Of a DNA stretch of 64,000 nucleotides, positions 2,691 through 41,267 are shown piece after piece. The notes below the pieces were generated by a model. The model was not told where the DNA came from. It was given only the letters and a program-made list of their open reading frames with translations, and made no database searches. This stretch comes from Tetradesmus obliquus. Its lineage: Eukaryota > Chlorophyta > Chlorophyceae > Sphaeropleales > Scenedesmaceae. The stretch's first letter is position 1. Each line of letters starts with the position of its first letter. The position numbers were made by a program, and so were the translations under genes. The stretch is from NCBI GenBank assembly GCA_030272155.1, contig CP126191.1, forward strand, positions 518,501 to 582,500, in the 5' to 3' direction.

Positions 2691-5600
2691 TCACTGCTCT
2701 GCGTCATCTGCGTCATCTTCGTCAACAACATCATCGCCGCCATCCAGGTCATCATCGCCATCCTCGTCTTCTGCCTCCTCTCCATCATCATCCTCTTCAT
2801 CGTCGCCCTCTTCTGCATCGCCCTCTACTTCTTCATCTGCAGGCGGTCACACAGAGCACACATAGGGCAGCAGGGGCAGGACATGAGATGCTACACCAAC
2901 CACTGCTATGCCATGCGTGGTGCTGCCCATGCTGCTGGCACAGCCGCCATTGCAATGATACCAGCAGCTGCATGCTAAGTGTAAAGGCATGCAATTTCTG
3001 CACTGCGACAAACGATTGTGTCACACATAACACAGCCGCTGCACAGTCACTTCAAGCGCATGCTGTGCTTGTGCGTTGTTGGGTCTGTGCTCCCTAGGTG
3101 TTGTTGCCTGCCTGGTGCTGGCACAGCCGTACAAGAAAAACACCACAGGCCAGAGCTCAGCACACTGCCCACCTTCATCTTCATACTCATCTCCCTCCAC
3201 ATCTTCCTCTTCCTCCTCCTCTTCTTCTTCCTGCTGCTCCTCAGCAGCAGAGTCTTGCTGCTGCTGCTGCTGTAGCTGCTGCTGCTGTTGAAACAGCTGC
3301 TGGTGCTGCAGCAGCTGCTGCACGCTCGCTGCCGCCCAGCTGCCTGCTGCAGCTGCTGCTTGCAGCGCCGGCAGCAGCTGCGAGGCGTCCAGCGCCGCTC
3401 CAGCAGCCACCAGCTGCGCTGCTGCTGCTGCTGACCCCCCGCCAGCAACAGCAGCAGCAGCCTGGCGTGCAGCGCGTGCAGCCACTGCCTCAGCAGCGAC
3501 GTCCCCGCTCACGCCAGTGGCAGCAGGCGGCTGCAGGTGATACAGCCCAGCCTGCTGCTGTTGGTGCATCTGCAGCAGCGCCTGCTGCTGCGCACCAGCG
3601 GCAGCGGCGGCCGCTGCCGCCGCTGCTGCCGCAGCAGCCCGCTGCTGCTGCATGTCGCCCGCGCCCATGCCAGGCAGCAGCAGCTGAGGCTGCTGCGCCT
3701 GCTGCTGCAGCGGCAGCGCGGCCATGGTTGCCGCTGCTGCTGCGGTTGCTGCGGAGGGCTCTGGTGTGGAGCCTTCACCCACCGGCATGTCCAGGTGTAT
3801 GCTGAAGAACTCGTGCTGCAGCGCCTCGACAGCAGTGGTGCGCGTGGCTGGGTCGTACCTGCGGCAGCCACAGCATCACAGCAGCAGCAACAGCAGCAGG
3901 CAAAAGTTCAGCAAGCCTGCTGTCTAGCAGGTACAGTGCTTGCCGCGCCTTAATGAATGAGGCTGCAATGCAAACCGCACGCTGACCGGCAGATTGCACG
4001 CTCACACAACACTGCAATGCGGAGCATGTCAACACACGCAGCACATTCCGCACAAGCTGGGCCCTCCCGTGACACCTCCAAACCCGCACCCGCAATTCTC
4101 TTCTTCTAATCACAACACAAAACAACATGACAACACTGCGCACCTAAGCAGGCCCTCAATCAGGCCAGCCAGCGCCTCCACAGCCTCGCCAGCCCCCGGC
4201 AGCCCCGCCTGGTCCGCGTGCGAGGCCAGCAGCGAACGCAGGTCGCTCAGCCGCCGCACCGCACGCAGGCTCTTGCGCGTCGCACCCTCCGGCCACGCCA
4301 GCCGCAGCGAGCCGCCAGCAGCAGCAGCAGCAGCAGTGCTGGCTTCAGCTGCTGCTACTGCTGCTGCTAGAGCTGCTGACGATCCGGCGTCGCCTGCTGC
4401 CGCTGTTGTTGCTGCTGCGCCGGGCGGCGCTGTTGTGAAGTAGCGCGCGGAGTGCTTGTCTGCTTTGCTGGACATGGCCTCAGGGATGGGGCCCAACACC
4501 TGCAGGAGCGCGCGGTCGAGGAACAAGCAGCAGCACGTGTTGGCAGTGCTCAACTGAGCATGACAGACCGCGCGAAGGCATGCGCTAAAGCTCCTCCTGG
4601 CGCGCCGGACCTAGTTGCGGCTCACCACAAGAGGCACAATCATGTCGCAATCTGCCCCTGGCCCTCACTGCGTACCCGCTGCATCACGGCCAGGTGCTCT
4701 AGGTCCTCCTGCCCAACCGCGCCATGCTCCCCACACTCTGCTGCCAGCACAACCCACACCCACCTGCTGCATCATGGCCAGGTGCTCCAGGTTCTCGTGC
4801 TCAACCACGCCCATGCTCTCCCACACCCTTCCCTCGGCACACACCCCGCATCCACCTGCTGCATCATGGCCAGGTGCTCCAGGCCTCATGACTGACTGAC
4901 CCAATGATCTTTGCCTGTTTCTGCTCCCAGCACAACTGACACCACTTACAGGGTTGTGTGTCGCCAACCAATTCACTTCAGCGCGTACATGCAAATGCAA
5001 TCTCAGTGTCAACACCCACCTGCTGCATCATGGCCAGGTGCTCCAGGTTCTCGTGCGTCTGGAACAGCGCGTCGCCCACCGCCAGCTCCACCAGGATGCA
5101 GCCGCAGCTCCACAGGTCGCACGCAAAGCTCCACCCAATGCCCAGGATCACCTGGCCAGGGTTGAGGGTTGATGGTAGCAGCAGGCAGCGCGGCAAGTAC
5201 AGGGCACGGCAGGGCAGGCAAGAGCTGCGTCAGCTGATGAGGAGACGCGTGGATCAAGCGCGCTGCGTCACACACAAGGTGCAGAGAGCACACCATGCCG
5301 CTGCGGCAGCTGCGCAGCCACCAGTGTACTCTGTAAGCTGCTGCTGAACTGCCCATCACGCTGTCTGCAAGATGCTTGCGCACACGAACACGCATGCACG
5401 TGGCCAGCAGCCTCACACATGCCAATTGCAGGATAGTTGCGGTCAAGCAGCTGGTGTCCAGCAGCTGCATGTGTGTGCCGCACCTCAGGCGCGCGGTAGT
5501 GGCGCGTGCTGATGATACTGCTGTGGTAGCCGTCCTCAAAGGTGGCGCTGCCAAAGTCGATGACCTTGATGGTGCTGTCGCGCGGCACGCGCCGCTCCAC

Positions 5601-38674: not shown

Positions 38675-41267
38675 ATGCTGCTGAATGTGGCAGGCCGCTT
38701 CACACGGCAGCTGTGCTGCTGCAGCGATGTGGTGCTGCCGCGCCTGCTGCTGCTGTAGACGACGTTGTTGGAAGCAGCTGCAGCAGCGCATACAGGCATA
38801 ACTCAACAAAGGAGCCCCAGCAGCAGCAGCAGCGGCGGCAGCGCTGTTGGTCAGTTCATAAGTTCAGCTAGCGCTGCAAGCCCCTCCAGCAGGGACAGCA
38901 GCCGCAGTACAGGCCCTACTAGTAACCACAGCAGCACAGGACGGAGAGGGCACTGGCTCCGCGTGTTCAGCACCAATGTGCCGAGCCTGTGCAGTACGCC
39001 AGGTGTGACTGTGGATGCAGCCCCTGCCAGGCTCATGCACGCGCGCAGAGCTGCCGGCAAGGTGCGCAGGCAGGATGCAAGATGCAAGATGCTGTCTTTA
39101 GCAGATGAGCAGCAGACGCACACCACAGCGTTATGACCTGCTGTTCCCCATGCATTTTGCCTGTGTTGGCCTGCCTGCTGGTGCTTCTGCTTGTTGCTCA
39201 AACCGCAGTGTGTGGCACTCTGCTGGGTTGCTGCATGACTTCTAGCTAAGCCTGTGGCAACTACTTGCTGACATGACCCAGCACTGGATTCAACAAGGTT
39301 GCTGATGTGGGTGGCTATTGTATGGCGACTTGAGCTGATTCGCGTTATGAATCAAAAAAGAGCTTATGCTTGTTCCTGTCGCAGGCTTTCAACCCAAGAC
39401 ACCTAACAGCCGAGATCAAGCAGGCCAGCACAGTGCTGTGCATGCCTCTATCGTATATTCTCAATTTGTGTTCAGTTTTCTGCAATTTACTATGTGTGTA
39501 CTGCTCCCTGCGTGTACAACTCAGGCTATTGATGCCCCTCTGCTGACAGCCAAGATCAAGCAGGCCACCACAGTGGCGCAGCTGCAGCAGCTTGTGCAGC
39601 AGCACGGCAGCAGTATGAACTACATACACCTTTCAGCAACAGTCAACACTCTAGGCAACTGGCAGCAACGCGGCAAGCTGAGCAGCACCCAGCAGCAGCA
39701 GCAGGTGCAGCAGCTGCTGGCAGACGTCGAGCTGCTGCTGCTGCCGGGGGTGCTGGATCAGTGTGGCTGCTTTGCACTGGCACAGCTGGTGTGGGGGCTG
39801 GGCTTGCTGGGCCACACACAAGGTGGTTTGTTTGTTGACTGCTTGAGAAGATTCATGCAGCGACTGCATCTCAATGACAAGTCACAGCATGTGTCTAATG
39901 TGCTGTATGGTGCAGCCAAGGCTTGGTGGGAGTTGGAGGCTGGGCAGGTGCAGCAGCTGCTGGTCAGGCTGCTGCCAGGTGCGGAGCCCCAGCATGTGGC
40001 CAACAGCCTGTGGGCAGCAGCTGTAATGGGGCAGACGCCGACAGAGCAGCAATTCCAGCAGCTGCTGGCTGCCCTGCTGAAGCTGCTGCCACATGCCAAG
40101 CCGCAGGAAGTGGCCAACAGCCTGTGGGCAGTAGCTACATTGGGGCAGGTGCCGACATTTCAGCAGTTGCAGCAGCTATTGGCTGCTTTGGCCAGGCTGC
40201 TGCCAGATGCCAAGCCCCAGCATGTGGCCAACAGCCTGTGGGCAGTAGCCAAGATTGCACAGCAGCTGACTGAGCAGCAGCAGCAACAACTGCAGCAGTC
40301 GCAGCACGTGCAGCAGCTGCTGGAAGGTCTTACGGGCAAGCTAGCTGCTGCCACGCCGCAGGCAGTGTCCAACAGCCTGTGGGCGTGTGCGCAGCTCAAA
40401 ATGTACCCAGCACAGCTGTTTGCTGCACTGGGCAGCCAGCAGCAGTGGGGCAGGCTGCTGCCAGCCATGAACGGGCAGGAGCTGGCCAACACTGCGCTGG
40501 CATGTGGGATAATGCACCACAGGGATGAGCGGCTGCTGGCTGGCCTGCTGCAGCATGCACTGCAGCTGCAGACAAGCAGCAGCGGCCAGCAGCTGAACAC
40601 TCAAGAGGTGTGCAACCTGTGCTGGTCTGTGGCAGTACAGGACGCGCAGCAGCTGGCAGGCGGTGTTGTGCAGCTGGTGCAGACAGCTGCCAGCAGCCAG
40701 CAGCAGTGGAGGGAGTTCAAAACAGAAGACCTGAGCCAGCTGCATCAGGTGCACCTGTGGCTGCTGGATGGTCAGCTGGTGGGTGGCAGGGGCCTGGCAG
40801 GGGCCCTGACACAGCAGCAGCTGCAGCAGTGCAGTGACGCTTGGTCAGATCAACACCAAGCTGGAGTAGCAAAGCCTCTCTCAAAGTTTCAGAAACAAGT
40901 GTTTGCTGCTCTGCAGCAGCTGACAGAAGCAGGCCAGCTGTCCTGGCAGCAGCAGCCGGCAATGGAGCAGCTGGCGCAGCCTGATGCTGCCTGCGTGATA
41001 GACATTGCTGGCGTGACAGCAGCTGGTGTGCGGCTGGCCATTGAGGCGGATGGGCCGTTTCACTTCCTGTGGCCTGACAGGCGGCTGGATGGCCGCAGCC
41101 AGCACAGGAACAGGACGCTGGCAACACGTCGCTACGCTGTGGTCAGTGTGCCCTACTTTGAGTGGGGCTGTCAGAAGGGTGCCCACCGGAAACAGCACTT
41201 GCTGGAACTCATACACCAAGCCATTCAGCAGCTCCAGCAGCAGCAGCAGCAGCAGCAACGGCAGTAG
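38675..41267 (+). CDS. OPR-repeat protein with C-terminal RAP domain (copy 1)
   Basis: The last exon, 39525-41267 (581 codons), is certain. Two upstream exons are a phase-consistent proposal: 38675-38728 and 38855-39061, giving 667 residues. The body has tandem helical repeats built around an ANSLWAVA core (for example HVANSLWAAAVMGQ, EVANSLWAVATLGQ, HVANSLWAVAKIAQ). These fit octotricopeptide (OPR) repeats, which bind organellar RNA. The C-terminus (about 586-645) is a RAP domain: GVRLAIEADGPFHF, WPDRRLDG, HRNRTLATRRYAVVSVPYFEW. RAP resembles a PD-(D/E)XK nuclease fold and is common in plastid and mitochondrial mRNA maturation factors. The N-terminus is Ser-rich and probably an organelle-targeting peptide, but its exon model is tentative. 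A tandem paralogue lies at 44955-47415. Confidence 0.85.
39385..39436 (+). repeat. Copy of OPR/RAP-1 last-exon start with acceptor
   Basis: The interval after CTGTCGCAG encodes AFNPRHLTAEIKQAST. It repeats the start of the true last exon (39525: AIDAPLLTAKIKQATT). The intronic copy is closer to the paralogue at 45688 (AVNPRHLTVDIKQATT) than to its own exon. The copy has an intact acceptor but runs into a stop. Confidence 0.85.

Follow-up and report, generated by a model that had tools for sequence, protein, structure and literature searches.

Why should introns of the green alga Tetradesmus obliquus contain partial copies of the exon edges that border them? The question is raised by a 64,000-nt stretch of its genome (contig C1, positions 518501-582500, hereafter the window; the genome comprises 104.66 Mb in 17 contigs), for which a first-pass annotation had reported seven introns, in five genes, that carry a copy of the adjacent exon end or start together with its splice site. 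Such a copy is called an echo here and the exon edge that it resembles its source; echoes are donor-side or acceptor-side according to the splice site concerned. All seven window cases are recovered by alignment and are real, the best score of each being matched by none of 290 unrelated introns and by none of 300 block shuffles of its own intron. Their positions in the window are as follows.

5012..5056, minus strand: end of exon 10 and donor of a LAMMER-type kinase gene (source; intron 10 = 4500-5019)
4849..4883, minus strand: first donor-side echo of kinase intron 10, counted from the exon (34/35)
4756..4800, minus strand: second donor-side echo of kinase intron 10 (45/45)
4674..4712, minus strand: third donor-side echo of kinase intron 10, the most distant from the exon (34/39)
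11943..11991, plus strand: G6PDH exon end and donor (source; intron 1 = 11986-12558, its junction established from protein P0001)
12068..12124, plus strand: donor-side echo in G6PDH intron 1 (47/57)
14942..14961, plus strand: G6PDH exon end and donor (source; intron 8 = 14949-15271)
15055..15074, plus strand: donor-side echo in G6PDH intron 8 (19/20, score 35)
22416..22457, minus strand: exon end and donor of the gene named RINGv (source; intron predicted at 22061-22424)
22261..22302, minus strand: donor-side echo in that intron (36/42)
33997..34048, minus strand: OSCP exon end and donor (source; OSCP domain PF00213)
33883..33935, minus strand: donor-side echo in OSCP (45/53; intron 33527-34007)
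32649..32697, minus strand: start of the last OSCP exon and acceptor (source)
32755..32803, minus strand: acceptor-side echo in OSCP (47/49; intron about 32685-33124)
39543..39575, plus strand: start of the last OPR/RAP-1 exon (source; intron end 39524; RAP domain PF08373)
39403..39435, plus strand: acceptor-side echo in the last OPR/RAP-1 intron (30/33, with weaker similarity back to about 39383)

The kinase assignment rests on a protein kinase domain (PF00069, E 1.1e-43), and the array of its intron 10, with a period of 88, is also detected by Tandem Repeats Finder. The name RINGv is that of the first-pass annotation only, a Pfam search of the predicted protein of this gene having returned no match. 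G6PDH intron 8 is the weakest of the seven cases. The G6PDH encoded in the window shares 99% identity with a T. obliquus protein.

The frequency of echoes was measured in a genome sample composed of the window and 28 further 10-kb pieces taken at round-number coordinates (344 kb in total). Gene models were produced by a self-trained predictor, trained on this same sample, which yielded 60 genes with 437 introns. In G6PDH, 10 of 13 introns agree between the predictor and protein P0001, two of the misses coming from a false microexon and one from the first exon. Junctions across the sample are mostly predicted, and are fixed by a protein only in G6PDH, GSH1 and TauD. Predicted acceptors in the window and in L004-L031 mostly read TGCAG, often close to (TGC)n runs; over the 437 predicted introns, C occupies position -3 in 97% and G position -4 in 89%. 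Edge queries combined 50 nt of exon with 12 nt of intron and were compared by alignment with the intron that they border, for introns of at least 100 nt and with a cut-off score of at least 36. Two array loci, L017 and L029, were kept in the rate counts and left out of those on codons, flanks, spacers and spacing.

Of the 361 predicted introns that reach this minimum length, 73 carry an echo on at least one side (95% interval 16-25%), a count that may be low since the predictor frequently labelled echoes as exons. Donor-side echoes are found in 51/361 introns, versus 4/3610 in the mismatched control (0.4 expected), and acceptor-side echoes in 33/361, versus 6/3610 (0.6 expected). This comparison of own with unrelated introns, which the first-pass annotation had named as the check to be made, confirms its observation and extends it: across the sampled genome, echoes are a systematic feature of both donor and acceptor sides and range from near-identical to strongly diverged. 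Echo-bearing introns number 6/71 in the window and 67/290 elsewhere (60/267 once the window, L017 and L029 are all removed), and 28 of the 57 intron-bearing genes carry at least one. The mismatched introns and the shuffles lead us to reject chance or low complexity as the origin, even if a few single matches are simple CAG-type repeats (window 33527, L011:2366). Many copies are diverged, with identities of 75-98%, which argues against an assembly artefact.

In orientation, in closeness and in spanning the splice junction, the copies are as expected of a tandem duplication across the edge between coding sequence and intron. Direct copies number 51 on the donor side and 33 on the acceptor side, versus 3 and 2 inverted ones, and the matched length has a median of 41 nt among the pairs that involve the junction. 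Copy spacing is narrow: it lies at 105-155 nt in 44 of 75 events, versus 16.6 +/- 3.4 for uniform placement. Clean contiguous duplications do occur in the sample, with 43 listed, 20 of them genic and nine of the genic ones having units of 100-160 bp. Of 55 events in which the intronic sequence beside one copy was compared with that beside the other, 27 give a significant alignment; on the donor side, similarity ends 10-40 nt beyond the junction in 16 of 51 events and at more than 40 nt in 15.

Echoes decay nearly neutrally. Mismatches between exon and echo number 64, 45 and 134 at codon positions 1, 2 and 3, and this ratio, close to 1:1:2, fits an echo that drifts facing an exon whose changes are mainly silent; strong coding conservation of the echoes is not supported by this pattern. 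Among codons with a single change between exon and echo, 107 are silent and 79 are replacements, with 2 stops. GT is retained in 27 of the 32 donor echoes in which both bases are aligned, and AG in 20 of 21 acceptor echoes.

The OPR/RAP family allows one echo to be compared among paralogues. Its paralogues are clustered on C1 (window 39530-47415, L032 and L033), the two window copies having 114-bp internal repeats, and a perfect 24-bp repeat of 5.4 copies lies just downstream of OPR/RAP-1 (window 41724-41853). Among the four copies compared, the last-intron echo of OPR/RAP-1 is also present in L032, and was not seen in L033 or OPR/RAP-2. Between OPR/RAP-1 and L032, differences affect 8/51 sites of the echo, 23/85 of the spacer and 28/236 of the exon. 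The OPR/RAP-1 echo resembles the exon start of OPR/RAP-2 over its whole 53 nt (43/53), versus 33 nt alone for its own exon (30/33), as if, judging from these alignments, it had kept an older version of the exon start.

Which of the two copies is used in splicing can be read from proteins in three genes. Spliced alignment at full identity of P0001 (last 537 of 589 residues), P0122 (484) and P0241 (OEZ86_008603; 441) fixes 26 introns in G6PDH, GSH1 and TauD. Of these introns, 11/26 have echoes (eight donor-side, five acceptor-side), versus 0/876 mismatched comparisons; the 11/26 is not a rate, as GSH1 and TauD were picked for their echoes, and P0241 was possibly annotated from this assembly. In each of the three genes the protein requires the outer junction, and echoes are absent from all three proteins. 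In GSH1, five further copies of one exon end come after it at a spacing of 149-152 nt, and at the end of this array identical copies adjoin an unrelated flank, which suggests recombination between copies.

Copies are also anchored at the coding edge. With 40-nt queries, 26/231 (11.3%) of those laid across the donor junction and 24/235 (10.2%) of those laid across the acceptor junction match their own intron, versus about 1% of queries more than 60 nt deep in the exon and 1-5.5% of queries inside the intron. With 62-nt queries, the junction value is 11-16%, and those for exon-internal and intron-internal queries are about 4% (8/187, 8/193) and 4-5% (9/246, 15/318), respectively. Donor edges match other introns of the same gene in 37 of 2575 comparisons (1.4%). 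Internal copies were found for 35 of 248 62-mers from long exons, with a control as high as 6.7%, so that coding repeats limit the exon-internal comparison. Between genes, 43 of 256 62-mers match within the next 400 nt, 40 of these 43 being in four satellite-array loci; satellite-like intergenic arrays were observed with units of about 277 bp (L019), 312-391 bp (L027), 274 bp (L031) and 191 bp (L007). The contrast between junctions and other places is in part expected, because selection holds one copy at a coding edge and neither copy elsewhere.

The anchoring is not restricted to splice junctions. Echoes are found at 4 of 48 coding ends at stop codons (control 0/480), two of them in GSH1 and TauD, both confirmed by proteins, and one probably a split-gene artefact. 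At start codons there is a single match in 47, namely the same L025 pair as one of the stop-edge matches, and this pair is probably one gene split by the predictor. At the GSH1 stop edge, similarity fades just beyond the coding edge. Since stop codons carry echoes, splicing is probably not their cause; an exclusive tie to splicing is weakened, and the idea that AG/GT junctions are themselves the target of duplication, put forward in the first-pass annotation, finds no support.

Taken at the level of mechanism, echoes are probably explained by short direct duplications of the tandem type that fall across coding edges and whose inner copy decays. Such duplications, with copies mostly about 105-155 bp apart, would arise in the genes of T. 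obliquus. Where the duplicated unit straddles a coding edge, the outer splice site, adjoining the exon, would remain in use, leaving a second exon edge and splice site stranded inside the intron. The copy in the exon would then be kept by selection, and the inner one would drift nearly neutrally and become an echo; repeated rounds would give arrays and, rarely, the geometry would produce a new intron. The extra copy would be removed by splicing at introns, and at stop edges it would stay in the untranslated region. For events whose intronic flank no longer aligns, a contiguous duplication is the presumed original event.

Several observations weigh against this explanation by duplication and decay. 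As many as 27 of the 55 events have no significant flank alignment (one more had no control), and they include copies that are 92-98% identical (L013:233, L007:4552, L018:5133, L030:7495), unlike what a plain recent tandem duplication predicts; recombination between copies, as suggested by the GSH1 array, may account for these near-identical copies and would thereby refresh some echoes. Of 51 donor events, 12 lose their similarity 6-9 nt beyond the junction, and no more than 70 nt of exon are copied in 31 of the 39 events with exons of more than 150 nt. Once the four satellite-array loci are set aside, a nearby copy exists for just 3 of the 191 intergenic 62-mers that remain, which is lower than expected if duplications fell everywhere. 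This rarity between genes is left unexplained, as are the narrow range of spacings, the small length of exon copied and the near-identical copies whose flanks do not align. Among tested introns, the median length is 319 nt with an echo and 268 nt without, a difference that is not significant (p = 0.13); a seemingly significant effect (319 versus 236.5, p = 5e-5) was discarded, as it had included introns of less than 100 nt, which lie outside the echo test. Finally, an annotated T. obliquus glutamate-cysteine ligase, P0121 (OEZ86_012514), contains an echo in frame: its 49 extra residues match what L008 encodes when read on past the exon end and through the intron 4 echo (L008:3276-3419), and its gene model (L008:3190-3700, GSH1) appears, from the match of translation to sequence, to use the echo donor. 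These 49 residues are absent from OEZ85_002557 and from a Scenedesmus acutus protein.

Part of this bears on the proposal, also made in the first-pass annotation, that echoes are a route of intron gain or growth. Gain is rejected as the main outcome: its signature (at least 36 of 50 matches) is present in 4 of 332 introns (0.1 expected), two of them in one tandem array and one CTG-rich, so that intron gain by duplication is rare. At L014:5912-6077, a predicted intron of 166 nt is exactly one duplicated unit, the classic mark of an intron gained by tandem duplication, and may also be an error of the predictor. In the large majority of introns, the geometry of the Rogers model, i.e., an intron as long as the duplicated unit that closes with a repeat of the exon end, is not found. 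As to growth, each extra copy must lengthen its own intron, and we infer that introns grow by duplication, yet the length difference given above does not bear this part out.

A bolder reading, to which we give a real but minor chance, is that this lineage has a duplication engine with a unit of ~120 bp that works at coding edges and keeps adding exon ends of 30-60 nt, together with the core splice site, to flanking introns. It would thereby create thousands of decoy sites and be a main source of intron growth, with a geometry set by chromatin, replication units or splicing and not by random slippage. Somewhat less likely still is edge-anchored copying, in which a process at work on coding edges, perhaps at splice sites, would insert 30-60 nt of exon edge with the core of the splice site ~75 nt into the intron, the spacer never having been duplicated. 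What keeps it alive is that spacing is narrow, that little exon is copied and that few intergenic copies are left once satellites are removed; sharp boundaries, spacers that cannot be aligned beside copies of 92-98% identity, a copied exon part that seldom exceeds 70 nt even in long exons and the likeness of donor and acceptor sides also speak for it. However, homologous flanks in 27 of 55 events, the fresh ones including contiguous duplications, are contrary to such insertion, as is the copy that ends just beyond the coding edge at a stop codon, where there is no splice site.

That echoes are functional, serving as alternative exon ends or as decoy splice sites under selection, is improbable. 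The retained GT and AG dinucleotides, the counts of silent, replacement and stop changes and the in-frame echo of P0121 would be in keeping with such a role, but the codon-position pattern fits drift, the G6PDH, GSH1 and TauD proteins are made without echoes, and the OPR/RAP-1 echo is not clearly held relative to spacer and exon in the comparison with L032. Insertion of copies by template-switching break repair, with nearby DNA serving as filler, is more improbable again: copies are short, come from about 100-200 bp away and in some cases have an unrelated spacer, as this repair would predict, but exon-internal sources at equal distance are rare and inverted copies are nearly absent, which rules against inverted templated copying. 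Least credible is that introners or some other family of repeats produced the echoes as target-site duplications, an origin that the many loci and narrow size range might recall, but that is rejected within the sample since no family is shared among 42 spacers in the 344 kb (best spacer-to-spacer score 27) and the median length duplicated is 41 nt versus 3-9 bp for some introners described in PMC9860276. Compared with other loci, spacers score at most 46, except for L013:2834, which scores 89.

The duplication of coding edges with decay of the inner copy remains the explanation that we prefer. If it holds genome-wide, roughly 20,000 introns would bear echoes (a rough figure, from 73 per 344 kb and 104.66 Mb), and many independent junction duplications of all ages would be open to study in one genome. 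Annotators should also be warned that echo copies can mislead gene models; spliced read mapping between copies of this kind is prone to false junctions, as reported for EASTR (PMC10632439). No genome-wide description of exon-edge echoes was found in a literature search that was thin in subscription journals. A word search of the main text of PMC7590803, on a T. obliquus genome, finds none of the words intron, tandem and duplication, and passages on introns and repeats in PMC8226300 do not mention exon-edge copies. Duplication across a boundary is, as far as the sources consulted describe it, known from a single case, and neither the prevalence nor the geometry reported here was met in the search.

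Among known systems, introners are alike in changing introns at the scale of a genome; they form a repeat family in the account given in PMC9860276, whereas the copies of T. obliquus are local and their spacers share no family within the sample. Intron gain through tandem duplication of exonic sequence bearing AGGT was proposed by Rogers (1989) and Hellsten (2011), both as cited in PMC4974935, and introns arising by tandem duplication are described in Drosophila (PMC2891723). In both gain of this type and the echoes, a short genic tandem duplication is tolerated and splicing removes the extra copy, but a Rogers-type intron is one duplicated exonic unit, a situation found here in just 4 of 332 introns.

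Repeated exon sequence within one gene is also the hallmark of tandem exon duplication and mutually exclusive exons. In contrast to these, echoes are mostly exon edges and not whole exons, and the G6PDH, GSH1 and TauD proteins lack them; the annotated P0121 includes one. The closest parallel is the potato RdRp gene, in which a tandem duplication runs across an intron-exon boundary (Ma, Lan and Niu, 2016, PMC4974935). In that gene, as described there, and in T. obliquus alike, the duplication is direct, lies over the boundary and inherits its splice signals from the parent structure. Unlike the potato case, which concerns one gene and a new intron, that of T. obliquus involves about one in five introns of the sample, where the copy in most cases turns into intron sequence.

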